Shown: positions 8,418-53,154 of the stretch, in pieces
Numbering within the stretch: the stretch's first letter is position 1
Layout: every line of letters starts with the position of its first letter
Assembly (NCBI GenBank): GCA_947573135.1
Contig: CANPDU010000022.1
Span: 1 to 53,154, forward strand
Source: an uncultured Bacteroidales bacterium
GTDB taxonomy: Bacteria > Bacteroidota > Bacteroidia > Bacteroidales > Muribaculaceae
Direction: 5' to 3'
Length of the DNA stretch: 53,154 bases
Program-made: the position numbers and the translations under genes
The notes under the pieces: model-generated
Told to the model about the DNA's origin: nothing
Databases searched by the model: none
Seen by the model: only the letters and a program-made list of their open reading frames with translations

Positions 8418-8422
8418 GACTG

Positions 8423-8430
8423 CAAATTTA
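8423..8430 (-). promoter_or_regulatory. -7 box just before bioA
   Basis: The minus strand reads TAAATTTG, a TAnnTTTG match, ending 5 bases before the bioA ATG. No matching -33 box was found. It implies a leaderless or near-leaderless biotin operon transcript if it is the promoter. No BirA operator palindrome was recognised. Confidence 0.4.
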
Positions 8431-8474
8431 CGATATTTTTGCGATATATTGACTTAGACGCCGTTCGGCGGGAC

Positions 8475-8496
8475 AACAAATATTGGGGAACGGGGT
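8475..8496. mobile_element. solo terminal repeat identical to the IS end at 18956-18977
   Basis: These 22 bases (beginning AACAAATATTGGGG) are identical to the right end of the degenerate IS5-like element near uvrA. No second inverted end is visible nearby. It sits in the divergent intergenic region between bioA and the DUF5119-like gene and is probably a remnant of a deleted or excised copy. Confidence 0.6.
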
Positions 8497-8586
8497 GTTA
8501 GGAACGAGAGGTGAAAAGCGAGTATGAACATAAGCAGTCAGAATCGTGTTGGTACTTTATCTGATAAACAGGGATGCGGCATATAA

Positions 8587-9561
8587 ATGAAACAAATCGT
8601 AATCAAAACCGGCTTGCTGCCACTGCTGCAGATGTGTCTTTGCAGTATTGCAGCGTCGTGTATATATGATTATGACAATTGTAGCGATGCGATGTATCTT
8701 ACAATCGACAGCAAGTGGGTGAATGTTCCGAATGCGTCGTGTGAGGGCGTCGCTTATATATTTTTTCCTGCAGACGGAAGTGTGCCGTGGCGCTTTGATT
8801 TCCAGGGCAAAGATGGGGGGCAGGTGCTGTTGCCTGTGGGCGAATATAGTTTCATAAGCCATAACGATGACGGAACTCGCGAGATATTCAGCGAGCCGGT
8901 CAGTTATAATGGCTATGAGGTTTACACTGCGAGCGCGCAATTACCGACATGTAACGTGTCGGCAGAGACGGAAGGGGAAAATGTGGTCACTCCCCCTGAT
9001 GCGTTGTATGGAAGTGTGTCGAGCAGAGTGAGCCTTTGTACAGAAGGCGTCAGTTATATAGCGACGGAATCTGAAAGCGTGTTGACGTTTTCTCCGGATT
9101 TTGTAATGACTGTTTATCAGCGGCCTCTGACAGCCCATTATAAGTATAGAATTGAGAAAGTAGAGAATATGCAGTCAGTCAGGTCGATGAGCGCGTCATT
9201 AAGCGGTATGGCCGGGTCACTGTTTATCGCCACAGGAGAGAAAGGACACTATCCGGTCACACTTTATCTAAGGGCAGCTCCGGCGTCGACCGATGTCATC
9301 GATGGCGAGTTCTATACATTCGGTATCCCGAGTTCACCTGATGTCGCAAATATACTGACACTGTATGCGGTCCTCAATAACGGCCGCAAGTTTTGCTATA
9401 AGTTTGATGTCACCGAGCAGATAAGGCATGCCGCCAATCCGATGGATGTCTTATTGACAGTCGGCGGCATTGAATTTGAGCGGCCAGAAGAGGGAGAAGG
9501 CGCCGGCTTCAACGTCGAGGTTGACGATTGGACGACTGTCGTTGTGAACATAAATGATTAG
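8587..9561 (+). CDS. DUF5119-like lipoprotein, fimbrial-cluster type
   Basis: A 324-residue exported protein. Its signal peptide ends in a lipobox with Cys25 (SIAASC), so it is probably an outer-membrane lipoprotein. The N-terminal half resembles DUF5119 proteins that accompany Mfa-like fimbrillins in Bacteroidales: a short beta-rich segment after the lipid anchor, then a stretch such as LLPVGEYSFISHN. The fimbrillin gene follows after 53 bases on the same strand, consistent with a two-gene unit. The family assignment is from memory of the pattern; the pairing strengthens it. Its precise role in fimbrial assembly is not known. Confidence 0.7.
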   Translation: MKQIVIKTGLLPLLQMCLCSIAASCIYDYDNCSDAMYLTIDSKWVNVPNASCEGVAYIFFPADGSVPWRFDFQGKDGGQVLLPVGEYSFISHNDDGTREIFSEPVSYNGYEVYTASAQLPTCNVSAETEGENVVTPPDALYGSVSSRVSLCTEGVSYIATESESVLTFSPDFVMTVYQRPLTAHYKYRIEKVENMQSVRSMSASLSGMAGSLFIATGEKGHYPVTLYLRAAPASTDVIDGEFYTFGIPSSPDVANILTLYAVLNNGRKFCYKFDVTEQIRHAANPMDVLLTVGGIEFERPEEGEGAGFNVEVDDWTTVVVNIND

Positions 9562-9614
9562 ATAAATTGTTTTATTTACATGTCTAAAGGATTAATTACA
9601 AAAAGCTACGCGAT

Positions 9615-10664
9615 ATGAGAATAACAGATATGAGAAAAACCACGGTAACGCTGATCACAATGATCGGTTTCATGGCGGTAACAAGCTGCTCGGAATATGA
9701 GAGTCCCCTCCCGAAGTATGATGAAAATATAATTTCGCTGAGAGCGGAAGTCCCTAATGTCTCTCGCGGGGCATCGACTACGACAGCCTCGATAAATGAA
9801 TTTGTCGTCTATGCATTCACAGATGGGGCTGCGCTGATGGACAGCGTGAGCGTTGTCCGCGATGGTGGCGTCTGGACATATTCTCCGCCGGCTTACTGGC
9901 CAGTGTCTGCCGTCAATTTTTACGCGTATAGCCCTCATATAAGCACGGCAGCCGATATCAGCGGTCAATCAGGAGCCAATATCAACGGGTATGTTAATCA
10001 CAGTAATGTAGATTTTCTATATTCTGTGCGCAAAAATGTCATGCAGCAAGCCGCTCCCGTATCGCTCAATTTCCGTCACGCCTTGTCGAAAGTGAGCATA
10101 ATGATGAGTTCAACTAACCCGCATATCAATGTAGTCGTCAGCTATATTGTACTTAAAAATATATATAAGCAAGGTGATTTTACTTTCCCTCAATCGTCGA
10201 CATTGCCGTCGACACCTGAAGTCGTCGGCACATGGAGCGATCTGAAGACTAAATCCGATATGATAACATTTGCAATCATAGGCGATGAAGACCGAGTAGA
10301 GCTGACGCCCGTTCCGACCGATTATACTTTAACCACTCTTGATCAAAGTTATGTCATACCTCAGCCTCTCAGTAAAGTAGAGCTGTCGAACGAGGGATAT
10401 GCAGGCACATATATCGAAGTCGATTGTGAAATTTTTGATTCGTCTACCGGCGCCAAATTATGGCCAAACAGTTCCACTCCGTCATATATGTTAGTGCAGG
10501 GTACCAAGACCGGCAGAATTGTCTATCCGGCAGCGGCAGACAATGTAAAGGAGTATAAGGCAGGGCATGCATATGTCTACAATATCTCAATCAATAATCC
10601 GAGCGTACTCGATCAGATTGAATTCGATGTGACAGTCGATGATTACACGATAGAACAGATGTAG
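9615..10664 (+). CDS. Mfa-like fimbrillin family lipoprotein
   Basis: A 349-residue secreted protein of the FimA/Mfa1 fimbrillin type. A signal peptide leads to a lipobox Cys25 (AVTSC). Family features follow: INEFVVYAFTDGA, then a tryptophan-rich WTYSPPAYWPVSAVNFYAYSP, and NFRHALSKVSIMM, the region where many Mfa-like proteins have the LxHxLS motif. Such pilins are lipidated, cleaved by an arginine protease after export and polymerised by strand exchange. The ATG at 9630 is an equally good start. No major fimbrial subunit, anchor or tip gene is adjacent, so this is a minimal unit with the DUF5119-like gene. Confidence 0.85.
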   Translation: MRITDMRKTTVTLITMIGFMAVTSCSEYESPLPKYDENIISLRAEVPNVSRGASTTTASINEFVVYAFTDGAALMDSVSVVRDGGVWTYSPPAYWPVSAVNFYAYSPHISTAADISGQSGANINGYVNHSNVDFLYSVRKNVMQQAAPVSLNFRHALSKVSIMMSSTNPHINVVVSYIVLKNIYKQGDFTFPQSSTLPSTPEVVGTWSDLKTKSDMITFAIIGDEDRVELTPVPTDYTLTTLDQSYVIPQPLSKVELSNEGYAGTYIEVDCEIFDSSTGAKLWPNSSTPSYMLVQGTKTGRIVYPAAADNVKEYKAGHAYVYNISINNPSVLDQIEFDVTVDDYTIEQM

Positions 10665-10673
10665 GAAAACGAC

Positions 10674-10703
10674 GGGCGGCGCATCAAAACAGATGCGCCG
10701 CCT
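10674..10703. terminator. bidirectional hairpin between convergent genes
   Basis: An 11-bp perfect stem (GGCGGCGCATC with GATGCGCCGCC) with a 6-base A-rich loop lies between the fimbrillin gene (plus) and the Omp28/T9SS gene (minus). The T-run is weak on both sides, so termination strength is uncertain. Confidence 0.6.
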
Positions 10704-10741
10704 AAGCTATGAATATAGAGAATTGACGAAATTACGGGCAA

Positions 10742-12691
10742 TTATTTAATAAGGACTTTAGAAACATTTGTTCCCTGCCGGCGTATGTATAAGCCGTTGC
10801 CGGGATTGGCGACGCGGACGCCCTGAATGTTGAAATACTCTACCGGCGCATCAGGATTGTCGACAACGACAGATTCGATGCCGGTGAAAGATCCGTCGCC
10901 TGCAGCTTTGAGGATACAAGCGTTTTCGATGCTCTTATTCCGGTAGTTTAACAGATAAACGACAACGTTGATATTGTCGAGATCTTTGATGGCCTGAAGA
11001 AGTTTGATGTCGTGGGAGTATTCATATTTTTTACCGACTTCGATTTCGGACGGTATGCTTCCCTTGATGCCGGAAAAATTATCGAGCTGGCGTGCGACGT
11101 CATTGTAGACGAGATCGACAGTCGAAGGCATGTTCTGCCAGTCGCCCGGAACAACAGACTGTTGGCCGGAGTAACCGTTTCGCTGAGAGTATGGCCCGAC
11201 ATTGTTTTCAGTAATGCCATATGCGAGTCTGAAGTTTTTGTCGCCGTCGGTGTAGTCGAAAGCAAAAGCTGTTTTTGTGTCAATTGTCAGAATGCGAGTT
11301 TCTTTGTCAAGCGAAGCCTGAGCTTCGACGCAGGCAATGCCGGGAAGAGTTTTATAGGCATTTACCATTTCCATGATGTTGTCGTAGTAGGGATATACTT
11401 CCTGCGAACGGTTAATGATAGCGTCGGGAACGCCAGTGTTACAGAAGGTATTGGCAACGTTGGCATAAGATGTAGCGGTCATTGGATCTCGGCCCGGGCT
11501 GTTGATGTGAATGCAGACGGGGATGACGGAGCCGTCAGTCGCTTCGTCGTGGATCTGTTCCATGGCAGTGTATCCGACGGGGCAATAGACGCATGAAATG
11601 CTTGTGAATTCCTCGACGACAACATTGCGGGTAAATCCGTTGCCTTTTTTGACGACAGTCAGATCATATTTTTCGGAATTATTCGGAGAGTTGTTAGGCT
11701 TTCCGTTTACTTCGGTCACTTTGAGGACAATCTCTGAACTTTTAGCCTCATTAGTTGCGACAAAATTCTCTATGCCGAGTATAATCATCTGATTGAGATT
11801 CCACTCTTGTTTGAGATTGTAAGTTTCAGTAACCGAACTTTCACCTGCGATGCCATATTCGACGGATATGTTTTTGACGGTGTTGACACCATCGTTAGCC
11901 AGCAGGAAGTTGAAAGAGAAAGGCTCATCGGTATTCACTACCGGCTGACCTTCGACAGCGAGTACGGAGACGTTGTCTTTCGGCAGGTTGGCCGCACTGA
12001 CAGTAGCGCCGAGAGTCATGAAACCATATGCGCTTGCGATATTGTCCCAGCTCCATTTTTTAAGCGAGTTGGCGCGAGTTGCGACCCATCCGCCGTATTC
12101 ATTCATGTGAGCCGTATAGTCGACAACGACAGGAACGTTGTTTTCATTATTGATGGTGAAATATACACCGACATATATGTTTTTGTCAGGAGTGATTTCA
12201 AAAGGAGTGTCGAGTGTGACATCAACTTTGGTGAAAGCAGTGCCGGGAGCAGTTGCCTGCTGAGTGTACAGGAAATCTCCGGTCAGATTATCGGTGATGA
12301 AAACGTTATATTTAGTGATGAGATTTTTTGTTTTATCATCATACAGTGTGCCTGTGTAGAATGAGATGCCGGTAATCTTTCCGTCGGTCAGTCCGCTGAC
12401 AAACTGCGGGTCGATCTGAAAAGCCATTGCCATCTGCATGCCGGGTTCCTGACCGTTGAATGACAGTGCGGTAGCAGGATCTCCGGCAAGAGAGTAATAT
12501 ACTTCCTCACCGTTGTCTGCGGCATCGGTGCGGGATGTTACGACGGGTTCGGCTTCGACTGTAGCTGGGATCTCGACAGACCTTAAGTCGGGTTTGAGCT
12601 CGGGCATTAGTTTTTTCGGTCCAGCGAAGGAAAATGCTGAAGAATAAAGAGTCGCCGATAGTGCGGCGAGCACAAAAAGATGCTTTTTCAT
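10742..12691 (-). CDS. Omp28-family thioredoxin-fold protein with T9SS sorting tail
   Basis: A 649-residue exported protein. A signal peptide (1 to about 23) is followed by beta-sandwich-like repeats (about 60-340). An Omp28-type domain then begins with VVEEFTSISCVYCPVG, giving a CxxC pair at C367 and C370 as in thioredoxin folds. The tail, ending in NPGNGLYIRRQGTNVSKVLIK-like residues, matches the Por/T9SS type A sorting pattern, so the protein is probably secreted and surface-attached. It is the last gene of a minus-strand envelope operon that also has a TlpA-like thioredoxin and a smaller Omp28. The substrate is unknown. Confidence 0.82.
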   Translation of the reverse strand: MKKHLFVLAALSATLYSSAFSFAGPKKLMPELKPDLRSVEIPATVEAEPVVTSRTDAADNGEEVYYSLAGDPATALSFNGQEPGMQMAMAFQIDPQFVSGLTDGKITGISFYTGTLYDDKTKNLITKYNVFITDNLTGDFLYTQQATAPGTAFTKVDVTLDTPFEITPDKNIYVGVYFTINNENNVPVVVDYTAHMNEYGGWVATRANSLKKWSWDNIASAYGFMTLGATVSAANLPKDNVSVLAVEGQPVVNTDEPFSFNFLLANDGVNTVKNISVEYGIAGESSVTETYNLKQEWNLNQMIILGIENFVATNEAKSSEIVLKVTEVNGKPNNSPNNSEKYDLTVVKKGNGFTRNVVVEEFTSISCVYCPVGYTAMEQIHDEATDGSVIPVCIHINSPGRDPMTATSYANVANTFCNTGVPDAIINRSQEVYPYYDNIMEMVNAYKTLPGIACVEAQASLDKETRILTIDTKTAFAFDYTDGDKNFRLAYGITENNVGPYSQRNGYSGQQSVVPGDWQNMPSTVDLVYNDVARQLDNFSGIKGSIPSEIEVGKKYEYSHDIKLLQAIKDLDNINVVVYLLNYRNKSIENACILKAAGDGSFTGIESVVVDNPDAPVEYFNIQGVRVANPGNGLYIRRQGTNVSKVLIK

Positions 12692-12734
12692 ATAATAAAT
12701 TCTACTACAATAATTATCATTATTTTAATATGTG

Positions 12735-13418
12735 TCAGCGGACGTATATCTTGCCTGACTTACCTCCGAAAGTGAACACATAAAGGCCTTTGTCAAGAGC
12801 AATGTGTCCCTCTCCCGATACGGTAGCCGAGAAGACGCTGACGCCGGCTAATGTTGTAACGACAAGGTCGGTGGCTTCGTCGCATTTATAGCTGAGACCG
12901 CCATCGACAGCCTTGAGTTCGTCGAGGACTTCGATTTCGCTTACCGATGCGTTTTTCTCACTCATTTCGATTACGAACTGCACCCGGCTGCCGCTTTCAT
13001 TGACGTCCTCAGCCTCAATGACAGTTACAACGACAGGAATTTCGTCGTCAAGATCAAACTCTCCGATGTAGTCAAAGCCAAGATCGACATTCTGATTCGG
13101 GCGAACGGTGACTTTTTCCTTGGTAACAGTCTCTCCGCCGCGACATGTTCCGCCGGCACAGAGCTGGATGCTCTGACCGCTGGTGCATGTAGCGGTAATT
13201 TTTACAGATGAGGAGTAGATGTTTGTTGAAATCGAGAGGTCTGGTTTCATGATGACCTCTTTGTACTGGTCGTCTTCGTAGACGTTGACAGTTATATCGT
13301 TGAATTCGACAGTCGAGCCGGGGGTGATTTTGTGATTACCCATCCAGAATGTCAGTTCGATGGCATTTGCACTATAAATGGCAAACATACATGAGAGAGC
13401 AAGTAAAAATTTCTTCAT
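12735..13418 (-). CDS. exported protein with T9SS-like C-terminal tail
   Basis: No named family is recognised for most of this 227-residue protein. It has a clear signal peptide (residues 1-19, ending SANA), a beta-rich body, and three cysteines in a CTSGQSIQLCAGGTC stretch that may form disulfides. The end (LAGVSVFSATVSGEGHIALD, then GLYVFTF and KIYVR) resembles a short T9SS sorting domain. It lies 18 bases after the Omp28 lipoprotein gene and 43 bases before the large Omp28 gene, so it is surely part of this operon. Confidence 0.75.
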   Translation of the reverse strand: MKKFLLALSCMFAIYSANAIELTFWMGNHKITPGSTVEFNDITVNVYEDDQYKEVIMKPDLSISTNIYSSSVKITATCTSGQSIQLCAGGTCRGGETVTKEKVTVRPNQNVDLGFDYIGEFDLDDEIPVVVTVIEAEDVNESGSRVQFVIEMSEKNASVSEIEVLDELKAVDGGLSYKCDEATDLVVTTLAGVSVFSATVSGEGHIALDKGLYVFTFGGKSGKIYVR

Positions 13419-13436
13419 AAATATTTGATATTTTGA

Positions 13437-14246
13437 TTAATGATTATCGGAAGTAGAGACGGGGACTTTTGCGGCCTGAACGACGCCGGAAGCATCGGAC
13501 AGAAAAGCCACAACTGCGAGATTTTCGGGAATCCATTTCTCGGTGGAAGTATCTTTAAGCGGGATGGAATAGCTCAGGTCCAGAGAACTTCCGGGCTGAA
13601 CAGTCACATTGTTTCCGTCAACGCCATTGACACATGCGCGGAAAACATTATTGTGGATATAGTCGTGAATGCGACCTTCGTTGATGTCTTCCTGACGGGC
13701 GACTATGCCTGACTCGATGATCCACACTATGAGCTTTCCGCCGAGACTTTCGGACGTAGACAGACTGCAATCGATTGATATAAGATTGGTATCTCTGTCA
13801 AGATCCGCATGAATGTCAATCATCAGAGGCGTTTTAACAGACAGATCGTCGTAGACGGCAGTCGCCCATTGATCAGGATTTAGAACCGGGATCTTACCGT
13901 CGATTATGCCCGACGGGTAGTCTTCGATGCCGTAACGGTCGTTGTAGATCCGGCCTTCAGGCTGCATAAGTCCTGTGTAGCGTTTGTTGTCGGCCGGTAT
14001 GCCAAAGTGCCCGGCATGGATGCTGACAGCAATCAAATGGCTGCCGTACTGCTGTTCGAGAGCCTCAATGGTGCGATGGGCAGCTGGACAGTTGACGCAA
14101 TTCTGACCGGTGAAATCTTCAAGCAGGACAGTGCGCTCGGCTTTTGTGGCTTCGACTTTGATATATCGGTCGTTTTCGGATATATTGTCGCACGAAGCGG
14201 TCAGAAGAGCCAGAGAAATGAAAGCATATTTTATTATATATTTCAT
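13437..14246 (-). CDS. Omp28-family lipoprotein
   Basis: A 269-residue lipoprotein with lipobox Cys19 (LLTASC). The Omp28-type core starts with VLLEDFTGQNCVNCPAA, carrying a CxxC pair at C50 and C53, the same layout as the larger Omp28 protein at 10742-12691. The CxxC in a thioredoxin-like fold suggests thiol chemistry, but Omp28 of Porphyromonas was described only as an outer-membrane antigen or possible adhesin. It is located 21 bases after the DUF6029-like gene, in the same operon as a TlpA-like oxidoreductase. Confidence 0.85.
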   Translation of the reverse strand: MKYIIKYAFISLALLTASCDNISENDRYIKVEATKAERTVLLEDFTGQNCVNCPAAHRTIEALEQQYGSHLIAVSIHAGHFGIPADNKRYTGLMQPEGRIYNDRYGIEDYPSGIIDGKIPVLNPDQWATAVYDDLSVKTPLMIDIHADLDRDTNLISIDCSLSTSESLGGKLIVWIIESGIVARQEDINEGRIHDYIHNNVFRACVNGVDGNNVTVQPGSSLDLSYSIPLKDTSTEKWIPENLAVVAFLSDASGVVQAAKVPVSTSDNH

Positions 14247-14267
14247 ATTATGAGGTCGGACAGTAGA

Positions 14268-15917
14268 TTAGAAAGTATAGCTATAAGACACTTGAAAGCC
14301 CCGTGTAGCGGGGACGTAGCGGCAGACTCCGCCCGAACAGTTGAAGCCGGCGCGTGTGCGCCCATAGCTCAGAAGCAAGCGGTTAGCCTTGTAGTTGCCG
14401 GCAATGCCTGCATTATAGTAATGCGTATCAGTTTCACCGCAATTCCACATGTCGGAAACGGAGACCATGATGTGAGGCGCCACAGACAGTTCGATCAAGC
14501 CGTAAAGCCAGTCGCGCTGATCCTGACGGGTGTGAAGGTATTGAATTTCGTTTCGGAGTGTGAAGCGTTTGTCGATACGCCATTTGGTATCGACAACAAA
14601 AATATTGGATCTTACCTTTCCCTCTTCAGGATGACCTTCGAGGAATTTGTCGTACATCTGGTTCATATACATGAATATCTGGCTTACCGAGCGGCTCCAT
14701 TTCTTGTCGATCTGAATATTGAAGTCGTGGTAGTAGCTTTGTCCCATGTCGAAAAATTTTGGCGAAGGTCCGTTCGATCCCATTTCGCCAAAATTACCGG
14801 GATTGTCGGTGAGGCCTCGGATGTAGCTCAGATTGATCTTGACTTTTGTTCCGTATTTTCCGCCCAAAGCAGTTTTGCGCTTGAAATTGTATCCGAACTG
14901 ACCCTGAAAGGCCCATTCGCCCGGTGCGGCCTGTGTGGCGTATGGGTAGAGCGCGGCCAGGGCATAGGTATGCAGATAAGAGAAAACAGGCATGTTGTTG
15001 AGGAAAGCGGAGGTTCCGCTCATCGACCTCTGACTGCGGAAAGCCATGTTCTCGCTACGTTTGATCTGAACAAGAGCGCTGAGGCCGCTGCGTGAAAAAG
15101 ATCCGCTGAGCATTGCGGCGGTTCCGTTGCCGTAGGTATAATTGTTGTCGAACGACGGATCCTGACCTTTCCATGCGAACTCCCCGAGAACGGCAAAACC
15201 GTTTTTCTGAAATTCTGATCTCAGATCAAAGGCGTTTACTGCTTTGGGAAGATTGAGGCGCCAGTTGTGTCCGGGAACCATTATGGTCTGGTCGTCCTCG
15301 TGTTTCAGCACATAGGAAGCACCGAAAGTCCAGCTGATATTTTTATCAGCAAGCGGCCTGAAAAGATCCTGAAGCACAAGCTCGAGATCACCGCCGTAGA
15401 CCTGAGAACTTGTCTTCCAGTCCCAGTATCTGCGCTGGACGCCTCCGAGAGCTGTCAGACGCACACCGTTGATCGCCGACACCTTCATGCGCCCTCCGCG
15501 GATCGCATTGTCGATGCCGAGAGAACGTTCCTGATATGTGCGCAGAATAAATCCGGCACCAAACTGTTCGTAGAAGTCTCCGCCTGTCAGTTCGAAGCCT
15601 TTATACCGGCCTTTGACATATATATGTGGCACGCCCCATCCGGCAAAATCAGGCTCGTAGCCTGGAAGGGGCCAGCGCATGAACTCGACTCTCGCGCCTG
15701 CGTCAACGTACTTGCTGATCATGTTGAGATCGGCGTAGGAGTTGAACAGAATTCGTTTGTCGTAGGATTCGGTGCCGATGGCGTTGTCCTCTTCCGGAAA
15801 CAGGACATCGGCCTGTATGCTGCCGTGAAACGCCACCCCATTGTCGTCTCCGATAGAAAAAGCGGAGACAGCCAGAGCCGTCGCGGCGAAAATGACCAGC
15901 AGAGTTTGTCTCTTCAT
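14268..15917 (-). CDS. DUF6029-like outer-membrane beta-barrel protein
   Basis: A 549-residue protein with a signal peptide (about 1-20) and alternating hydrophobic/polar strands rich in Tyr, Trp and Phe ending in SYSYTF, a terminal aromatic typical of outer-membrane barrels. The N-terminal part (FHGSIQADVLFPEE, then GGDFYEQFGAGFILRTYQERSLG) matches what I recall of DUF6029 in Bacteroidota. The function of that family is not known. It lies 8 bases after the TlpA-like gene and before the Omp28 lipoprotein, so it may provide the membrane part of the same complex. Confidence 0.75.
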   Translation of the reverse strand: MKRQTLLVIFAATALAVSAFSIGDDNGVAFHGSIQADVLFPEEDNAIGTESYDKRILFNSYADLNMISKYVDAGARVEFMRWPLPGYEPDFAGWGVPHIYVKGRYKGFELTGGDFYEQFGAGFILRTYQERSLGIDNAIRGGRMKVSAINGVRLTALGGVQRRYWDWKTSSQVYGGDLELVLQDLFRPLADKNISWTFGASYVLKHEDDQTIMVPGHNWRLNLPKAVNAFDLRSEFQKNGFAVLGEFAWKGQDPSFDNNYTYGNGTAAMLSGSFSRSGLSALVQIKRSENMAFRSQRSMSGTSAFLNNMPVFSYLHTYALAALYPYATQAAPGEWAFQGQFGYNFKRKTALGGKYGTKVKINLSYIRGLTDNPGNFGEMGSNGPSPKFFDMGQSYYHDFNIQIDKKWSRSVSQIFMYMNQMYDKFLEGHPEEGKVRSNIFVVDTKWRIDKRFTLRNEIQYLHTRQDQRDWLYGLIELSVAPHIMVSVSDMWNCGETDTHYYNAGIAGNYKANRLLLSYGRTRAGFNCSGGVCRYVPATRGFQVSYSYTF

Positions 15918-15925
15918 CAGTTGAA

Positions 15926-16426
15926 TTATTTGTCAGAGTTCAGATTACGGATGATTTCGATCAGCTGATCTTCGGAGCCGTCGGTATATCCGGAATGAGT
16001 ATAAGCTATCTTTCCCTTACCGTCGACAACGAGGATATGAGGCACGCTCTGCAGGCCCATGGCGCGGAAAAAATCACTGTTTGCGTCAAGAAGCACCTCG
16101 TAGTCCCAGCCCTCGGCATCGACAAACGGTTTCACTTTCGAAGTGTTCTGTGCGTCGTCTATTGAAACTATATACATTTTCATGCCGGTTTCTTCCTGCC
16201 AGTCGGGATATAGCTCGGCGATTGCGCGCAGCTCTCGTAGACAGGGTTTGCACCATGTGGCGAAGAAGCTGATCACGAATGGTTTTCCGTTGTTTGAGAG
16301 CTTGGCGACGTTGACGGTGTTGCCTTTTGTGTCTTTGACGTTAATCGCAGGGAGCTGAGCCGATACAGCGGGAGACGCAATCGCAGCGGTGAGAAAGATT
16401 AGAGCGGCAGAGATAAATTTTTTCAT
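15926..16426 (-). CDS. TlpA-like periplasmic thiol-disulfide oxidoreductase
   Basis: A 166-residue thioredoxin-fold protein with a signal peptide (residues 1 to about 23, ending AVSA). The active site is FFATWCKPC with C59 and C62, followed by RELRAIAELY; the cis-proline is in QSVPHIL. The start at 16426 (MKKFIS) is chosen because the frame's extra ten upstream residues precede the signal peptide and reach into a hairpin at 16452-16489. It probably reduces or oxidises exported proteins; the two Omp28 proteins in the same operon, each with CxxC, are obvious candidate partners. Confidence 0.92.
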   Translation of the reverse strand: MKKFISAALIFLTAAIASPAVSAQLPAINVKDTKGNTVNVAKLSNNGKPFVISFFATWCKPCLRELRAIAELYPDWQEETGMKMYIVSIDDAQNTSKVKPFVDAEGWDYEVLLDANSDFFRAMGLQSVPHILVVDGKGKIAYTHSGYTDGSEDQLIEIIRNLNSDK

Positions 16427-16451
16427 CGGGTACAGGGTAATAGTTGCGAAA

Positions 16452-16489
16452 TTCACGACACGGTCTCAGAGACGAGACCATGTCGTGAA
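16452..16489. terminator. strong hairpin between secreted-protein gene and TlpA-like gene
   Basis: Sixteen-base arms (TTCACGACACGGTCTC and GAGACCATGTCGTGAA) pair with one mismatch around a 6-base loop. It sits between the stop of the 16516-18234 gene and the start of the TlpA-like gene. No T-run follows, so it could be a partial terminator, an attenuator or an mRNA-stabilising stem separating the two expression units. Confidence 0.6.
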
Positions 16490-16515
16490 TGTGTAGTAGT
16501 TGAGCTGGTTAAAAA

Positions 16516-18234
16516 TCAATTGTTTGCGATCTTGATAACAGAAACGGAACCGTCGTTGCGGATACCTTTTGCAACGTACACACCACCGTCAAGACCGAGG
16601 TCGATGTTGCCGGCCGGCTGATCGAACGATTTAACGACAGCGCCGCTGATGTTGAAGATTTCAACAGAAGCGAAACCTGCGGGGACTGAAAGCTGACCGT
16701 CGGCGTTGATCCGAAGATCTTTATTGCCGCCGATGACGGTAGCAGTGATGCCTGAAGTTGCAGTCATGTCGAATACGACACTCTCAGCAACATAGTCACT
16801 CCACGGACAGTCATTCCAGAAGACGATAACGCTCATGTCGGGAGTTGCAATAGTCATACCTGTGTAGATTACTTCCTCGATAATGTCGTTCCATTCTTCG
16901 TCATGTCCGGTTACAACTTCATGACTCATATTCTCGACGATCCATTTACCATATTCAGGAGAACGCGCGCTGATGTATTTGTCGATTGTTGTGACTTGAC
17001 CGTCCTGATAGACATAACCGGTCATGGGAGTCGAACCTGACCCGTTACCGCCGAGTATAATACCATTGTCGGCGACATAAGTAGGCGCGAAGTTGGGGAT
17101 GTCGTCGGGAATGTTCAGTTCGCCGGTCTCGATATCGACGGTCGACACTTTGTAGATGGTTTTCGGGAACCATGCAAAGGGATCAGAATCGTCCATTTTT
17201 TCGATTGGAGAAACAATAGTCTTTCCATCGGTAGATAGAAGGGCATTGTTAAATGAGAAGTTCGGAGAGTCAGAAATGACATTGTTGCGGTAAGTATTGT
17301 AAGCAGTAGATTTTTCGTCCCATACTTCAAATACTTTATTATATTCAGCAAGATCAGCATTATATTTGGCCAATTCCTCTTCCGACATATAGTCTTCGGC
17401 TTCAGGATATTCGCCTGTATAAGTCTTACGGTATTCAGCGAGAGCAGCCTGATATTTGGCTAATTCCTCTTCCGTCATATAGTCTTCGGCATTAGGACGC
17501 TCTGGGCATTCGCCGGGATCTTCAACAGCTTCGAGGCTATTAGGATTGAAATATTTCTCAGTTGGCAGTGAGTAACTCCATTTGCCTTCGGAGTCCTGCT
17601 TATAGAGTACCGGAACAGTCATCATGCCGCATCCAAACTGCATCTGGCCGACGATTGTTTTCCCGTCATTAGAGATAGACAGAGCTGTAACGTACTGGGG
17701 CTTTTCTCCGAAAAAATCCTTTGTCGGATATGGCAGAGGATTGGGGTCGCCGTATGTGCCGTCGGCGTTACGTTCCCAATATACAGGGAGCTGCATGAGC
17801 TGGTAGTCGATGCCGCTCTGACCGATGTTGCCGCAGATACGCGAACCATCGTCAGTGATGCCATGACACAGATTGACGTTCTGAGGATTAGGGACTTTAA
17901 GGTCATGCCATGTGCCGTTCTGGAAGTAAGAGGCAGTGCCGTTTGCTGTTGTAGAGCCGAGGATAATGCTGCCGTCGGGAGTGAGAGCGTTTCCGTAACC
18001 GAATGAGTATTCGTTTTCATCGTCAGGAAAGAAAGATGTGACGGAGCCGTCAACGAGGTCATAAATATCGACGCTTCCATAAACGCTTGAAAGAAGATAG
18101 CGGCCGTTGTCGGAAATGTGAACGAAAGACGCGCCAAATTCACCGGTGTAAATGGTTGGTGTGGCTGCGGCGACAGTTAATGGAACAGACACACAAGCGG
18201 CTGCCGCAAGACAAACGAGTAAAGATTTTTTCAT
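16516..18234 (-). CDS. T9SS-type secreted protein with propeller-like N-terminus and tandem repeat
   Basis: A 572-residue secreted protein without a recognised named family. It has a signal peptide (1 to about 23), then blades with repeated motifs of the type SISNDGKTIVG and ALTPDGSIILGS, as in WD40-like/beta-propeller proteins. Residues about 246-305 hold two copies of a 30-residue charged helical unit (AEDYMTEEELAKYQAALAEY and AEDYMSEEELAKYNADLAEY). The C-terminus (VEIFNISGAVV, then GGVYVAKGI, VIKIANN) fits a T9SS sorting domain. It has its own promoter at 18366-18398 and precedes the TlpA/Omp28 operon. Confidence 0.75.
   Translation of the reverse strand: MKKSLLVCLAAAACVSVPLTVAAATPTIYTGEFGASFVHISDNGRYLLSSVYGSVDIYDLVDGSVTSFFPDDENEYSFGYGNALTPDGSIILGSTTANGTASYFQNGTWHDLKVPNPQNVNLCHGITDDGSRICGNIGQSGIDYQLMQLPVYWERNADGTYGDPNPLPYPTKDFFGEKPQYVTALSISNDGKTIVGQMQFGCGMMTVPVLYKQDSEGKWSYSLPTEKYFNPNSLEAVEDPGECPERPNAEDYMTEEELAKYQAALAEYRKTYTGEYPEAEDYMSEEELAKYNADLAEYNKVFEVWDEKSTAYNTYRNNVISDSPNFSFNNALLSTDGKTIVSPIEKMDDSDPFAWFPKTIYKVSTVDIETGELNIPDDIPNFAPTYVADNGIILGGNGSGSTPMTGYVYQDGQVTTIDKYISARSPEYGKWIVENMSHEVVTGHDEEWNDIIEEVIYTGMTIATPDMSVIVFWNDCPWSDYVAESVVFDMTATSGITATVIGGNKDLRINADGQLSVPAGFASVEIFNISGAVVKSFDQPAGNIDLGLDGGVYVAKGIRNDGSVSVIKIANN
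17340..17520 (-). repeat. 90-bp in-frame tandem duplication
   Basis: Two near-identical 90-bp units (for example CAATTCCTCTTCCG at 17371 and TAATTCCTCTTCCG at 17461) lie inside the secreted-protein gene. The period is exactly 30 codons, so the reading frame is preserved. Confidence 0.8.
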
Positions 18235-18365
18235 AAGTTAAGAAATAAATTAAGTTAACAAAAAGAACGGCAACCGATGAAGAATGGAAAGTTCTGGAAT
18301 AGCTTTTTCGTAAAAAATAACCTGGATTATCTATTTTAGATCGGCATTGTTCGATAAATACGCTG

Positions 18366-18398
18366 CAAAGGTAATTAAAAAAAGTTCATAAAAACAAA
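18366..18398 (-). promoter_or_regulatory. Bacteroidota-type promoter for the secreted-protein gene
   Basis: The minus strand has TTTG (18398 to 18395), a 21-base spacer, and TACCTTTG (18373 to 18366), matching the -33 and -7 boxes. The leader to the ATG at 18234 would be about 125 bases. Confidence 0.65.
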
Positions 18399-18429
18399 TA
18401 TATCGGAATAAAAATTGCGAAAATAAAAA

Positions 18430-18465
18430 ATATGCTGCGTTTTTTTAATATATAACGCAGCATAT
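18430..18465 (-). terminator. intrinsic terminator, originally of uvrA
   Basis: A perfect 12-bp stem (ATATGCTGCGTT with AACGCAGCATAT) around a 12-base AT loop is followed on the minus strand by a T-rich run. It lies only 28 bases beyond the IS remnant. If the element is removed in thought, it sits about 30 bases after the uvrA stop, so it is probably the uvrA terminator. Confidence 0.8.
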
Positions 18466-18474
18466 ATTGGATGA

Positions 18475-18810
18475 CTAAATGATGATTTTTTTAAGACCCC
18501 GTTCCCCAATATTAGTTAACGCTGGGGCGGTCAATCGTCGTGCAGATGAGTTCGCGCAGTGAGGGAGCAATGCGGTTGCATTGTGACCGAAACAAACGGA
18601 CGCAGATGCATGGCGATTGGCCGAGGCGATGGTAATTCCCGTTAACGATTGGGCCAGTCCCGTACGTACGCTTGGGCTATCGATGACGGCAACTGTCGGT
18701 GGTGTCTGTTTTTCTTTCGAAACCCTTGCGACATCATTCAATTCCTGTGTCAGACGGTCAAAAAATCCGGTTGAAATCCACTTGCGGTAAAATTCATATA
18801 CGGTACGCCA
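18475..18810 (-). pseudogene. IS5-family transposase fragment
   Basis: Reading the minus strand from 18810 gives WRTVYEFYRKWISTGFFDRL, then VAVIDSPSVRTG, which are the hallmark pre-DDE helix and first catalytic Asp region of IS5-type (DUF4096/transposase 11) transposases. After SVRTG the similarity stops: the remainder of the catalytic domain is missing, and the frame runs out through the left inverted repeat. Upstream, a TAA stop directly precedes the Trp codon, so the N-terminus is lost as well. Confidence 0.75.
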
Positions 18811-18979
18811 TTAATTTATTGTGTTGTAACGAATTAAAATTACCTGAGTATCGCATTTCTCCGGCGCTTTTTGCCTTGTTCCTCAGTCACGTAGCTACGG
18901 CTACGCTCCTTCGTTACAAGACAAAAATCACTCAGAGATATGCGCCCCCAGCATTAACAAATATTGGGGAACGGGGTCT
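18494..18979 (-). mobile_element. degenerate 486-bp IS5-like element or MITE
   Basis: Both ends carry near-perfect inverted repeats of at least 20 bp beginning AGACCCCGTTCCCCAATATT, with similarity continuing for about 35 bases. They are flanked by a 2-bp TA duplication (18492-18493 and 18980-18981). Inside is a fragment of an IS5-family transposase and a short hairpin (18890-18905). The element is far below the size of an active IS5 (about 1.0-1.3 kb), so it cannot move on its own. It lies between uvrA and its terminator, and its terminal base forms part of the uvrA stop codon. Confidence 0.8.
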
Positions 18980-21792
18980 TACAGCTTGTCTTTCAGAAAT
19001 GCGGCTGTGTGGCCAAGTCCCGAAGCCACAATTTCCTCGGGCGTGCCAGTGGCAACGAGTGAGCCTCCGGCTTCGCCGCCGTCAGGACCGATGTCGATGA
19101 TATTGTCGGCGCACTTGATCACTTCAAGGTTATGTTCGATTATTATTAATGTGTGTCCTTGTCTGAGCAGTTTTTCAAAAGAATCGAGCAGGACGTGGAT
19201 GTCGTGGAAATGAAGTCCGGTCGTCGGCTCGTCGAATATGAAAAGAGTCGGTTCGGGTTTTTCCTGAGCAAGAAACCAGGCGAGTTTGACGCGCTGGTTT
19301 TCGCCCCCCGAAAGAGTCGAAGACGACTGCCCGAGTTTTATATAACCGAGCCCGACATCCTGAAGAGGCTTTAGACGGCGGACAATTCGGCGTTCGGTTG
19401 CTCCGTCGGTCTCTGAGAAGAATTCGATCGCCTGACTGACGGTCATGTCGAGCACGTCATAGATGTTTTTGCCGCGGTATTCGACTTCGAGCACCTCGGC
19501 TTTGAATCGCTTGCCGTGGCACGACTCGCACGGCACGACAATGTCGGCCATAAACTGCATCTCGATGGTGATCGACCCTTCGCCCTTGCACTCTTCGCAG
19601 CGGCCGCCTTCGGCATTGAAAGAGAAATAGGCCGGAGTAAATCCCATCTGGCGCGAGTGTTGCTGATCGGCGAACAGGGATCGTATCTCGTCGTATGCCT
19701 TAAGGTAAGTCGCCGGATTTGACCGGGAAGATTTACCTATGGGGTTCTGATCGACAAATTCGACTGACGATATCCGCCTGATGTCGCCTTTGAGAGATCT
19801 GAAGGCTCCGGGTGCGTCGCCCGGGTTGCCGAGCTCGCGCTGGAGACCACGGTACAATATATCTCTTACAAGAGTGGACTTGCCGGAGCCGCTGACGCCG
19901 GTCACAACGTTCATCACGCCGAGCGGGAAACGGACAGTGAGATTCTTCAGATTGTGTTCGGTTGCGCCGTTCACCTCAATGTAGCTTGACGAACGCCGTC
20001 GCGAGCGCGGCACGTCGATTTTTTCGGCACCGGAGAGATAGCGTAGTGTGTGACTGCGGGGTGCAAGGCGCTCCGCCTCATCGGGATTACCGGGCACCGG
20101 TCCTTCATAGACTATCTCTCCGCCGAGACGTCCGGCGTCGGGGCCGACATCGATGATCATGTCGGCGGCGCGCATTATTTCTTCGTCATGCTCAACGACA
20201 ATGACTGTGTTGCCGAGAGCTTTGAGTTTCTCGAGGACGCGGATCAATCGGTCGGTGTCGCGCGGATGCAGACCGATCGACGGTTCGTCGAGTATATAAA
20301 GCGATCCGACAAGGCTGCTGCCGAGAGATGTCGCAAGGTTGATGCGCTGGCTCTCGCCACCTGACAGGGAGTTGCTGAGACGGTCGAGAGTAAGATAGCC
20401 GAGTCCGACCTCATCGAGAAAGGTCAGTCGGTTGCGGATCTCTACCAGCAGGCGTGCGGCTATTTTGGAGTCGCGTTCATCAAGTCGCAGATTTTCAAAC
20501 CATTGGTTTAAGCGTTTGATCGGCATTCTGACTATATCGCCGACCGAGAGACCGTTGATTTTGACGTAAGCGGTTTCGGGTCTGAGTCTTGAGCCGTGGC
20601 ACGACGGGCAGACGGTCTTCCCTCGGTAACGTGCGATCATAACCCTATACTGTATCTGGTGTCGCTGAGAGTCGAGCCATTGAAAAAAACGATCGATCGA
20701 CGGCATCTCGCTTCCGTCGCCGTGCCAAAGCAGATCGCGCTGGCTTTCGGTCAGATCTGCATAGGCCGTATGTATGGGAAAATCGTTGGCTGCGGCCCAC
20801 GATATAAATTCACGTTTCCATTTACCCATGACTTCACTGCGCCAGCATGCCACAGCGCCTTCGTAGACGGTGAGTGAACGGTCGGGCACGACGAGGTTTT
20901 CGTCTATTCCGATGATTTTGCCGAAGCCTTCGCATTCCGGACACGCACCGTATGGATTATTGAAATTGAACATCTGGTCCGACGGTTCGAGGAAAGCGAT
21001 GCCGTCGGCCTCGAAGCGCTTTGAGAATGTTTTGCGGACAACGCCGCTGTCGGTCCACGCGAGGAGAACACATTCGTCATGACCTTCGAAGAATGCCGTT
21101 TCGGCAGAGTCGGCCAGACGCGACTGCTCATCGCCGCTTCGAGCGACGGCGAGTCGGTCTATCAGCAGGTCGTAAGTGTCGGTTGTCGCGGATTTGTCGC
21201 CGATCAGATCTGATATCAGGTGAAAGCCGCCTTCGTGGTCGACGAGTCGCGAGAAGCCTTCTTTCTGATAAATTTCGAGCTGAGCTGCGAACGGCCGTCC
21301 TTCAGGCAGGCTTATGGGCGCGGCGACGGCGATACGCGTCCCCTCAGGCATAGCTGCGGCAGCGGCCATTATGTCCTCGACCGACTGTTTTTTGACCTCT
21401 TCGCCCGAAACCGGCGAATATGTGCGGCCTATTCGGCCAAAAAGCATGCGGATATAGTCGTAGATTTCTGTCGATGTTCCGACAGTTGACCGCGGATTGC
21501 GCGTGTTGACCTTCTGCTCGATGGCTATAGCCGGCGGCAGACCTCTGATGAAGTCGCACTCGGGCTTGCGGAGTTTGCCGAGAAACTGACGCGCATAGCT
21601 TGACAGGCTCTCGACATAACGGCGCCGCCCTTCGGCATAGAGCGTGTCAAAAGCCAGCGACGACTTTCCGGATCCGGAAAGCCCGGTGACGACGATAAAT
21701 TTGCCTCGCGGCAGTTCGACGCTGATGTTTTTTAGGTTATTGACACGTGCGCCACGCACGATTATATTTTGTTGCTCCTTTTTCTTTGACAT
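18979..21792 (-). CDS. uvrA: excinuclease ABC subunit A
   Basis: UvrA is the damage-recognition ATPase of nucleotide excision repair. At 937 residues it is full length. Two ABC modules are visible with Walker [14 protein letters not shown] near the N-terminus and [13 protein letters not shown] in the second half, signature motifs LSGGESQRI and LSGGENQRV, and zinc-finger cysteines (CPECEG, CPSCHG; CEECKG, CESCHG). A -7 box TATCTTTG (minus, 21826-21819) lies 26 bases before the ATG. The stop codon TAA uses the last base of the adjacent IS remnant. Confidence 0.98.
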
Positions 21793-50409: not shown

Positions 50410-51804
50410 ATGAAAGAGAAGGTAACAGTGAGCAATGACACGATATGCGCGGTGTCGACTCCTCCGGGCACGGGCGGAATAGCCGTGGTGAGGGTGAGCG
50501 GGCCGGAGGCGATAACGGTGTGCGACAGGATCTGGCACGGACGTCGGCTGGCTGAAGCGGTGAGCCATACGGCTCATCTGGGTCGGATCAGCGACGCAGA
50601 CGGTGAGCGGCTTGACGAGGCTGTGGCGACGGTGTTCCGCGGTCCGCGGTCGTTTACGGGTGAAGACGTGGTCGAGCTGTCAGTCCATGGATCGGTCTAT
50701 ATACAGCGGGAGCTGATCAACGCGCTCTGTGAGGCCGGAGCGCGGCTGGCCGAACGCGGAGAGTTCACGCGAAGGGCGTTTGCGGCCGGGCGGTTCGACC
50801 TGGCGCAGGCCGAGGCTGTGGCCGATGTGATCGCTGCCGACACCAAGGCTTCGCATCGGCTGGCGATGAGTCAGATGCGCGGCGATTTTTCGGCCGAGTT
50901 GCAGCGGCTTCATGACGGGCTGCTCGAACTTGTGTCGCTGCTCGAACTTGAACTTGATTTCTCGGAAGAGGATGTGGAGTTTGCGTCGCGACAGCATCTG
51001 CTCGAACTGGCAACGGAAATAAAAGGCACCGTCGGAAGGCTCGCGCGCAGTTTCAGAACGGGCGATGCGATAAAACGCGGTGTCAGCGTTGCGATCGTCG
51101 GCGAGACGAATGCAGGAAAATCGACTCTGCTCAACAGGCTGCTGCGCGACGAGAAGGCGATAGTGAGCGACGTTCACGGCACGACGCGCGATATAATCGA
51201 GGATACTGTCGATATCGACGGCGTCTGTTTCCGGTTTATCGATACTGCCGGTCTGAGGGAAACGACCGACAGCATCGAAAGTCAGGGTATAGAGCGGGCC
51301 ATCAGACGGATGAAGTCGGCTCGCATAGTGCTGTGGGTTCTTGACGCGGGACGTCCTGATAACGTAGAGCGGACGTCGCGTGACGTCATAGGCAATCTGT
51401 CGGACGATCAGACGCTCGTCGCGGTAGTGAATAAAACAGACGCGGCAGACCCGGGCAGCGTGTGCGACAGGCTCGGACGGCTGGGGTGTGGGAATATCGT
51501 GAAACTCGCTGCGGCGAAGGGCGAAGGGGTCGAGGAGCTTGAACGAAAGCTCGTGGAGATATCGGGGGCGGCCGACATAAGGGCGACAGACGTGATTGTG
51601 ACCAACGCGCGCCACCACCGTGCGCTCGTCGACGCCGAGGCGTCGATATCACGGGCAATCGACGGAATCAATGCGTCGCTATCGGGCGATTTCATAGCCC
51701 AGGATCTCCGCGAAACCCTCCACCACCTCTCAACCATCACCGGCACCATCACCACCGACACCATCCTCCAAAACATCTTCGAAAACTTCTGCATCGGGAA
51801 ATAG
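50410..51804 (+). CDS. mnmE: tRNA modification GTPase MnmE
   Basis: MnmE, with MnmG, installs the cmnm5 group on U34 of certain tRNAs. The 464 residues hold the formyl-THF-binding N-domain (TPPGTGGIAVVRVSG at 17-31), the helical domain, and the G domain with G1 GETNAGKS (231-238), G3 DTAG and G4 NKTD. The C-terminus is the invariant FCIGK with the essential Cys. The last about 31 codons use C-ending codons almost exclusively (all seven Thr as ACC, all five Ile as ATC), unlike the rest of the gene; see findings. The 3' end of this gene is a known island integration site. Confidence 0.97.
   Translation: MKEKVTVSNDTICAVSTPPGTGGIAVVRVSGPEAITVCDRIWHGRRLAEAVSHTAHLGRISDADGERLDEAVATVFRGPRSFTGEDVVELSVHGSVYIQRELINALCEAGARLAERGEFTRRAFAAGRFDLAQAEAVADVIAADTKASHRLAMSQMRGDFSAELQRLHDGLLELVSLLELELDFSEEDVEFASRQHLLELATEIKGTVGRLARSFRTGDAIKRGVSVAIVGETNAGKSTLLNRLLRDEKAIVSDVHGTTRDIIEDTVDIDGVCFRFIDTAGLRETTDSIESQGIERAIRRMKSARIVLWVLDAGRPDNVERTSRDVIGNLSDDQTLVAVVNKTDAADPGSVCDRLGRLGCGNIVKLAAAKGEGVEELERKLVEISGAADIRATDVIVTNARHHRALVDAEASISRAIDGINASLSGDFIAQDLRETLHHLSTITGTITTDTILQNIFENFCIGK
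51782..51804 (+). other. candidate attachment site at the mnmE 3' end
   Basis: The last 18 bases, TTCTGCATCGGGAAATAG, correspond by position and encoded FCIGK to the attB of SGI1-type islands in other bacteria. No second copy is inside the window. Confidence 0.4.
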
Positions 51805-52034
51805 CCTACGAGTTAAACATAGCAATACCACCTATAAATATTATACCGCATACACATGCGTGTAAACTCACAAGGCATTTTTATAACTGTATTGTGTGCT
51901 TTTAAACATATTCATTTTTATTGCCATGTGAAGTTTTTTCGCTAACTTTACCAGCTATCAATAAACTTGGATTGAATGAGAAATGATATAAAACGATTAA
52001 GAAATCCACAAAACGATTGAACGTCTGATTAGAC
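51805..52034 (+). promoter_or_regulatory. AT-rich leader of dndC with possible promoter and short ORF
   Basis: This 230-bp region is much richer in A and T than the mnmE side. TAACTTTA at 51943-51950 is one base from a -7 box. A 14-codon frame (51976-52020, MRNDIKRLRNPQND) ends 14 bases before dndC. AAAACGATT occurs twice, near 51990 and 52010. No gene of usual size is seen. Confidence 0.4.
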
Positions 52035-53154
52035 ATGAAAAATAAACGTATTGAATATATCATTGATGAGATTTTAGATCAGTATGCTTACGCTGATCAA
52101 TCCAACCGACCATGGATTATCGGATTCAGCGGTGGTAAAGATTCTACTGTATTACTTATGCTGGTTTGGATTGCTTTGCAAAAGCTAAAGAATTTACCAT
52201 GTCCCTTCCAATTAAGACGTCCAGTTTATGTGGTATGCAATGACACGATGGTAGAAAATCCCATTATTGCAAATTATGTTGATGACGTATTAGAACTAAT
52301 TGAGGAAAAAGCGAAAGAAGAAGATCTGCCGATATTCGTAAGAAAGACAACCCCAAGGCTCGAAGATTCTTTTTGGGTTAATGTTATAGGCAAGGGATAC
52401 CCAGTTCCCAATACAGCCTTTAGATGGTGTACTGAGAAGATGAAAATCAAACCTACAGCTCGTTTCATCACCGAACAAGTGGATGAGTGTGGAGAGGCAA
52501 TAATCCTAATTGGCACTAGAAAAGCAGAAAGTGCAACTCGCGCTCGATCTATAAAGAAACATGAAATTCATGGTAAGCGTCTTACCAAACATACTCTTTT
52601 GGCTAATACTTTCGTATATGCACCGATAAAAGAGTTGATCTTAGATGAGGTTTGGTCAATTATAAATAGTATCCCAACCCCTTGGGGTTTTGAGAACAAA
52701 TTATTGTATAATATATATCGAGATGCAAATGCAGACGACTATGAATGTCCGGCCGTCGTTACTGATGATAGTCATGGGTCATGCGGTAGGAGTCGTTTTG
52801 GCTGTTGGACATGTACAGTTGTGAAGGATGATAAATCCATGCGAGCTCTCATAAAGAATGGTCGCGAATGGATGCAGCCTCTCTATGATTTTAGATTAAA
52901 GTTAGACCAAGAACGTAATATCATTGAAAATAGATTCCCGTTACGACGTGACGGAAAAAAAGCTGTAAATAACATGGGCCCGTATACATTTTCATACCGA
53001 GCTCAAATGTTAGAGAACTTATTAAATGTTCAACTTGAATTACAACAACATAACCCTAAAATCAAACTAATTACTGATCAAGAATTGATTGCTATTCAGG
53101 TAAATTGGTATAGAGATTTCAATTTCGGGCATCAGGTATCAGAAATATATAATA
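52035..53154 (+). CDS. dndC: DNA phosphorothioation sulfurtransferase DndC, cut by window end
   Basis: The frame is open to the last base, giving 373 codons with no stop. DndC adenylates or activates the DNA backbone position so that sulfur can replace a non-bridging oxygen. The PP-loop SGGKDST is at residues 32-38. DndC hallmarks follow: VNVIGKGYPVPNTAFRWCTE with C132, LIGTRKAESATRA, and HGSCGRSRFGCWTC with C250, C257 and C260; these four cysteines fit a 4Fe-4S site. Then DDKSMRALIKNG. DndB is not upstream, so dndC leads the visible unit; dndD and dndE would be expected next. Its AT-rich codons differ from mnmE, suggesting horizontal transfer. Confidence 0.92.
   Translation, partial: MKNKRIEYIIDEILDQYAYADQSNRPWIIGFSGGKDSTVLLMLVWIALQKLKNLPCPFQLRRPVYVVCNDTMVENPIIANYVDDVLELIEEKAKEEDLPIFVRKTTPRLEDSFWVNVIGKGYPVPNTAFRWCTEKMKIKPTARFITEQVDECGEAIILIGTRKAESATRARSIKKHEIHGKRLTKHTLLANTFVYAPIKELILDEVWSIINSIPTPWGFENKLLYNIYRDANADDYECPAVVTDDSHGSCGRSRFGCWTCTVVKDDKSMRALIKNGREWMQPLYDFRLKLDQERNIIENRFPLRRDGKKAVNNMGPYTFSYRAQMLENLLNVQLELQQHNPKIKLITDQELIAIQVNWYRDFNFGHQVSEIYN

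Follow-up and report, generated by a model that had tools for sequence, protein, structure and literature searches.

A dnd module behind mnmE in a member of the Muribaculaceae, a probable derivative of mobile elements that integrate at this gene

Phosphorothioation and restriction systems are among the cargo of gammaproteobacterial islands found at the end of trmE, and these islands integrate in tandem, as described in sections of PMC7449626 and PMC2297512. Here, we examine the right-hand end of a contig (CANPDU010000022.1; C22) from an uncultured member of the Muribaculaceae (assembly GCA_947573135.1, 2.85 Mb in 56 contigs), the whole of which, 53154 bp, is referred to as the window. At this end, the start of dndC, a gene of the Dnd DNA phosphorothioation system, follows the same housekeeping gene, mnmE (also trmE or thdF), and the window is likely to close with the left border of a dnd module that was acquired horizontally and sits at a hot spot of integration, the module probably being a derivative of the elements that insert at mnmE. 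Genomes, contigs and loci are designated below by G, C and L numbers.

The elements found behind mnmE in relatives resemble SGI1, MGIVchHai6 and their relatives, as these are portrayed in the same sections, in targeting the terminal 18 bp of mnmE/trmE/thdF, in being integrative and mobilizable, in their tandem arrangement and in their phosphorothioation or restriction cargo. They differ in belonging to another phylum and in carrying, where an integrase is present, a zinc-finger/HTH_17 protein, a SAM_5/Arm integrase, DUF3987 and a MobA relaxase, none of which is encoded in the window, and the likeness is one of description. Of the SGI1-type island proposed in the initial annotation, which was made from the window alone, the target site is the part shared as far as these descriptions go. 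Bacteroidales elements such as NBU1, MTnPi4, Tn4555 and cLV25 likewise combine a tyrosine integrase with a MobP-type relaxase, but the relevant portion of PMC5704250 assigns them to tRNA genes, preferred sites or AT-rich regions, or gives the site as undetermined, and does not name mnmE for them; in that portion trmE is given as a site only for gammaproteobacterial elements. The main text of a survey of gut mobile elements (PMC6907783) does not mention mnmE or trmE, and no report of an mnmE site in Bacteroidales was found by title or abstract in the open-access literature. As in the dndCDEi systems of Riemerella, Prevotella and Bacteroides, dndE in the relatives is fused to a DndH/HerA-like ATPase, a helicase fusion known in Bacteroidales according to part of PMC7464106, though neither dndD nor dndE is visible in the window. 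The phenomenon is known elsewhere, and what is new is its use in this phylum, the type of element, and a dnd cassette that lacks an integrase and bears a regulator deletion.

The mnmE gene (50410–51804, plus strand) is intact and encodes 464 aa (NCBIfam TIGR00450, 335 bits with a cut-off of 253; NF003661, 398 bits, over its cut-off). Its final 18 bp, TTCTGCATCGGGAAATAG (51787–51804, plus strand), are the putative attachment-site core and occur as a single exact copy in the 56 contigs; the presence of this 18-mer is in itself unsurprising, as it codes for the MnmE C-terminus, FCIGK-stop. The dndC gene begins with an ATG at 52035, in the same direction and after a gap of 230 bp (51805–52034), and its first 373 codons (52035–53154, plus strand) are present before it is cut by the contig end. 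Despite this truncation, it passes the cut-off for the DndC sulfurtransferase of the Dnd system (TIGR03183, 394 bits with a cut-off of 290; PADLOC DndC, 1.3e-133), and SGGKDS is found at residue 32 and CGRSRFGCWTC at residue 250. The G+C content falls from 0.60 in mnmE to 0.317 in the gap and 0.373 in the available part of dndC, and the last 1350 bp are more AT-rich than all 1010 sliding windows of 1350 bp in positions 1–51804. The distance and orientation of dndC, the drop in base composition, the 18 bp and the lack of an integrase in the visible stretch had all been pointed out in the initial annotation, and each was borne out. No integrase or zinc-finger/HTH protein lies between mnmE and dndC, no element left end was recognised there, and no sigma-70 promoter or terminator of note was found in this interval.

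The distribution of dndC is very restricted. Of 397 Muribaculaceae genomes, 6 carry it, and the genome studied here is the sole carrier among 49 members of its genus, so the presence of dndC at this same place in all related strains, named at the outset as part of what would speak against an island, was not observed. The DndC fragment is 93 % identical to that of G265, which belongs to another genus, and the MnmE proteins of the two share 46 %; the corresponding values are 90 and 52 % for G153, 90 and 57 % for G098, and 82 and 48 % for G269, with G207 carrying a more distant DndC (61 % identity). No close DndC was found in IMG/VR, where one element junction pattern also had no match, and plasmids yielded only DndC of <60 % identity. 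Horizontal acquisition of dnd by this genome is well supported by the rarity of dndC and by the comparison of DndC with MnmE identities.

That the 3′ end of mnmE is an integration site in this family is also well supported. In genus g1, where mnmE was matched in 37 of 49 genomes, 15 have a contig end <500 bp downstream of the gene and none has one that close upstream (medians 756 and 12405 bp), and in genus g8, which includes G153 (27 of 34 genomes matched), the numbers are 10 and none, respectively (medians 1277 and 23952 bp); distances were taken from the end of the protein match and are approximate for partial matches (e.g. those in G327, G312, G102, G297 and G251). We attribute these breaks to inserted elements because the left ends of such elements recur behind the stop codon. 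A readable mnmE stop was available at 57 sites in the two genera (the genome studied here and G153 were left out, and four sites in g1 and one in g8 ended before the stop). Among these, a zinc-finger/HTH protein or tyrosine integrase starts within 1.5 kb at 25 sites, and 13 others match an element head or left end by sequence, giving 38 of 57 with a recognisable element. Where at least 700 bp could be read, such a protein was present at 23 of 34 sites (10 of 18 in g1 and 13 of 16 in g8). The profiles used to detect the two proteins had been seeded on those of G269 and widened on the same regions that were later counted. In G269, the integrase contains the domains Phage_integrase, SAM_5 and Arm, and an HTH_17 protein is encoded next to it. 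The same left ends recur after mnmE across species with approximately 55 % shared MnmE. Ribosomal RNA operons were set aside as the cause of the breaks, given the element left end at 38 of 57 sites, and no RNA search of the relatives was made. Other families of the order show a weaker tendency to break at this point, with a contig end <1500 bp downstream in 14 of 85 minus-strand matches and upstream in 4 of 56 plus-strand matches (Fisher p 0.13; rank test p 0.005).

The stop codon of mnmE goes with the element rather than the host. At 35 sites assigned to named element families (other sites were left out, as was the G265 row with its shifted coordinates), the stop codon is the one used by the majority of the element family in 33, compared to a mean of 21.9 and a maximum of 28 in 20000 shuffles, and the last lysine codon mostly tracks the element family too, regardless of the host. 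We propose that tyrosine-integrase elements, most of them mobilizable, insert at the codons for the last MnmE residues (CTGCATCGG), that strand exchange would occur within CTGCATCGG, and that the incoming element would bring its own final lysine codon and stop, such that mnmE is restored at each insertion. Elements could then stack in tandem at the end of mnmE, an arrangement seen in the relatives.

Five genomes (G074, G105, G008, G088 and G204) were followed for 27–76 kb downstream of mnmE. Three of them contain the mnmE end a second time, at +30940 in G074 (three mismatches), +26148 in G105 (four) and +52013 in G008 (two), and no second copy was found in G088 or G204. By mismatches alone, only the copies in G008 and G074 stand out, as the backwards control gave one match at four mismatches in the five genomes and G088, G008 and G204 contain other four-mismatch matches that lead nowhere; the three copies were recognised because the left end of the next element lies directly behind them. 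In G074, the second element encodes a zinc-finger protein and an integrase of its own, at the usual spacing. G269 was followed to the contig end and has further copies 21.7 and 29.3 kb downstream of mnmE, the first leading into a left end and element head and the second into 14 bp of left end and then the dnd region.

The dnd genes can be cargo of this element family. In G265 (L035), dnd is preceded by an HTH_17 protein, DUF3987, MobA and two further genes, and this conclusion is drawn because the 5 kb in front of dnd are 79–82 % identical to, and colinear with, the second element of the mnmE array in G074. The backbone similarity stops 75 bp before the stretch that G265 shares with the promoter region of the dnd genes studied here. 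The mnmE gene of G265, on another contig, leads into a left end and a zinc-finger protein that are also of this type. In the relatives L035, L038, G098 and G207, dndD and dndE adjoin dndC, and the relatives' dndE combines a DndE domain with the DndH/HerA-like ATPase part. The naming of these families overlaps, the L035 DndD (7039–9150) scoring 695 bits with the PADLOC PbeC model and at best 279 with the DndD models. In G098 (L160, contig C42), a 450 aa DpdB/DndB-like protein is encoded close behind dndE (4292–5644, minus strand).

In two further genomes dnd is found after mnmE or after a copy of its end. In G153 (L038, Paramuribaculum sp. HAN018), it starts 546 bp after mnmE, well inside a 280 kb contig, and the order is mnmE, a gene for an XRE regulator, dndC, dndD, a dndE of 534 aa and an interrupted Mrr-type gene. 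This last, a restriction gene (L038 14981–15820), appears to be interrupted near its start. In G269, the XRE gene, dndC and dndD follow the third copy of the core, with dndC 747 bp from it, and the contig ends once dndD has begun. In neither genome is there an integrase between the core and dnd.

As dnd thus comes first after the site in three genomes, and no left-hand backbone would then be needed, the window could instead hold the beginning of a complete element of another type, with dnd at its left end, an integrase at the far, unsequenced end and nothing lost; the contig does end after 1.35 kb. Elsewhere in Bacteroidales dnd sits on other elements: among 28 dnd loci listed, and apart from G269 itself, the integrase profile used here gave a match within 10 kb upstream in four and downstream in one. 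An integrase lies directly upstream of dnd in L051 and L162, 339 bp upstream in L114, with a weaker score, and 9.8 kb downstream in L052. L162 (G207, contig C36), read in reverse at 7245–19816, has a different integrase directly before dndC, dndD, a short dndE, and PbeA-like and PbeC-like genes, and appears to be another type of dnd island in the family, away from mnmE. However, no integrase is met in G153 before the gene order is back, within 9 kb, at pyrG and other chromosomal-looking genes. In G269, a mere 14 bp of a left end come after the copy that precedes dnd, and this stretch resembles a scar given that the same left end after mnmE continues into an element head. We regard a complete element of this kind as possible, if somewhat doubtful.

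The dnd genes may, alternatively, have been placed after mnmE by ordinary recombination, illegitimate or homologous, their nearness to the site being a coincidence. In keeping with this, the window contains no known left end, and both a left end and a second repeat are missing from G153, but in three of the six dnd-bearing genomes of the family no more than 750 bp separate dnd from mnmE or from a copy of the mnmE end, and elements in two genera commonly insert at this site. Coincidence is, hence, an unlikely explanation, and we return to derivation from an mnmE-site element. On this reading, the dnd genes would have arrived by the same route as the elements of the relatives, the Bacteroidota-type operon (dndC, dndD and dndE fused to a helicase) being one of several cargoes, as seen in a relative. 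With dnd now starting approximately 100 bp from the site and no element backbone in front of it, either the integrase–relaxase head would have been lost from between the attachment site and the cargo slot or the integrase would lie beyond the contig end.

The 230 bp between mnmE and dndC fall into two parts. The second contains the dnd promoter region and the first codons of an XRE regulator (51904–51995, plus strand), identified by local alignment with the sequences upstream of dnd in L036 (score 68, 51904–51995), L035 (57, 51913–51995) and G269 (53, 51915–51995), such that similarity to other dnd loci starts at 51904–51915. The regulator gene is a remnant of 14 codons (51976–52020, plus strand) that, compared to L035, lacks exactly 180 bp, or 60 codons, in frame and reads MRNDIKRLRNPQND-stop. 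The intact homologue in L035 is 74 aa long and belongs to HTH_3 by Pfam, and intact frames with the motif VSKWCTN are present in 11 of 14 upstream regions examined; the exceptions are L040, with none, G269, with none in the cut used though one is present in a longer stretch, and L098, where the frame is longer and has a different end. Loss of the 60 codons probably leaves the dnd operon without this control. The same features bear on whether the mnmE–dndC junction is simply an assembly chimera. The ends of mnmE are frequent assembly break points in the genus, the contig stops inside dndC, and the remainder of the operon is absent from the assembly, no further pieces of dndC, dndD or dndE being found in the 56 contigs with a 5.5 kb dnd query from the closest relative. 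A random join would, however, leave both the in-frame shortening of the regulator and the retained dnd promoter unexplained, and mnmE followed by dnd is also seen inside the long G153 contig, as is a copy of the mnmE end followed by dnd in G269. A chimera is, therefore, very improbable.

The first part, approximately 100 bp (51805–51903, no strand) without known relatives, is a candidate left end or scar. Outside the locus itself, its only matches in the 397 family genomes were the mnmE end or chance-level stretches of ≤30 bp, bar one, a 55 bp match of 75 % identity at the mnmE end of G192 (E 0.07).

Several results weigh against derivation from an mnmE-site element. When 51805–51903 was compared with the known left ends, the best score was 22, close to the mean of 20.5 for shuffles (p 0.27), and it was not recognised as one of them. 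The sequence ends at 53154, inside dndC, so neither an integrase nor a second repeat was seen in this genome, where the right flank is unassembled and a looser 16-mer search for a second core gave 14 matches in all compared to 21 for the backwards control. In G153, no integrase, known left end or recognisable second repeat was found in the stretch searched around the dnd insert. The second and third copies in G269 are too diverged to be found by the 18-mer alone, the second not being among its matches and the third being one of ten at five mismatches, and both were recognised via the left-end sequence that follows them. No recognisable element was found at 19 of the 57 sites. An empty site, which the initial annotation had looked to related genomes to provide, could not be read: the contig of the nearest relative, G239 (MnmE 78 % identical), ends inside the 18 bp, G118, G128 and G131 do not share the order of genes that follows mnmE in G153, and there was none from the same species. 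Accordingly, what holds of the suggestion that a Dnd island lies at the mnmE 3′ end is the integration site, with its element heads, second 18 bp copies and contig breaks in the family, and the horizontal acquisition; no integrase, right-hand repeat, dndD, dndE or restriction module was seen beside dndC, the contig ending within that gene.

Other candidates in this genome were considered and put aside. Inexact copies of the 18-mer (up to three mismatches) numbered 31 compared to 27 in the backwards control and were not used; most of those inspected fall within genes. L032 (contig C39), near a contig end, was considered as a right end and dropped. Five integrases are encoded elsewhere in the genome, the best being 43 % identical to that of G269, with no linkage to dnd shown. 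Integrases on C36 that weakly match the DndC profile are unrelated to dndC. Tandem pairs of tyrosine recombinase genes are present on C36 (20779–23913, L004) and C19 (51290–55378, L279).

The cargo of mnmE-site elements was surveyed in a biased sample, six elements being viewed, with proteins chosen by eye, and five of them scanned with PADLOC. The G105 element (L236, contig C12, 151–5301, minus strand) encodes SspB, SspC and SspD, which belong to the other known type of phosphorothioation system, and that in G143 (L235, contig C333, 195–1687) a CBASS-type cyclase and an E2-like protein. A PLD/SNF2-like helicase with a type IIG enzyme was found in the G055 element, a Vsr nuclease with a C5 methyltransferase in G074, and a type I methyltransferase in G088; the sixth element viewed, that in G008, resembles a prophage in its genes. 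In G209, 51 bp of left end are kept and are followed by a type I restriction-methylase protein with no element head, and there is no recognisable element after mnmE in G309, where a Schlafen-type helicase is found, or in G052, which has a dynamin-family protein.

Two further arrangements were noted by eye. Integrase-led, phage-like genes follow mnmE at L163/L249 (G088, contig C2) and L228/L252 (G008, contig C4), and prophages may share the site. At L165 (G204, contig C33), mnmE is followed by a winged-helix-like protein with no element head and, 3.4 kb on, by an apparent capsule locus that includes a NusG-type gene.

A broader interpretation, which we put forward tentatively, is that the FCIGK codons were adopted independently as an attachment site in the Bacteroidota, where they would accommodate tandem arrays with exchangeable anti-phage cargo (Dnd, Ssp, CBASS-like, and type I and II restriction), that integrase-less cassettes would be moved in trans, and that the dnd genes studied here have been freed of their XRE regulator. 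From the families to which DndC, DndD and DndE belong, the expected function of the module would be sulphur modification of DNA and probably restriction of unmodified DNA. One housekeeping locus would then be a shared dock for anti-phage systems in dominant bacteria of the mouse and human gut, as trmE is in Gammaproteobacteria, which would point to places to look for new defence systems and would explain the recurrent assembly break in these genomes, and the integrase-less cargo at mnmE would be a natural test of movement by neighbouring elements.

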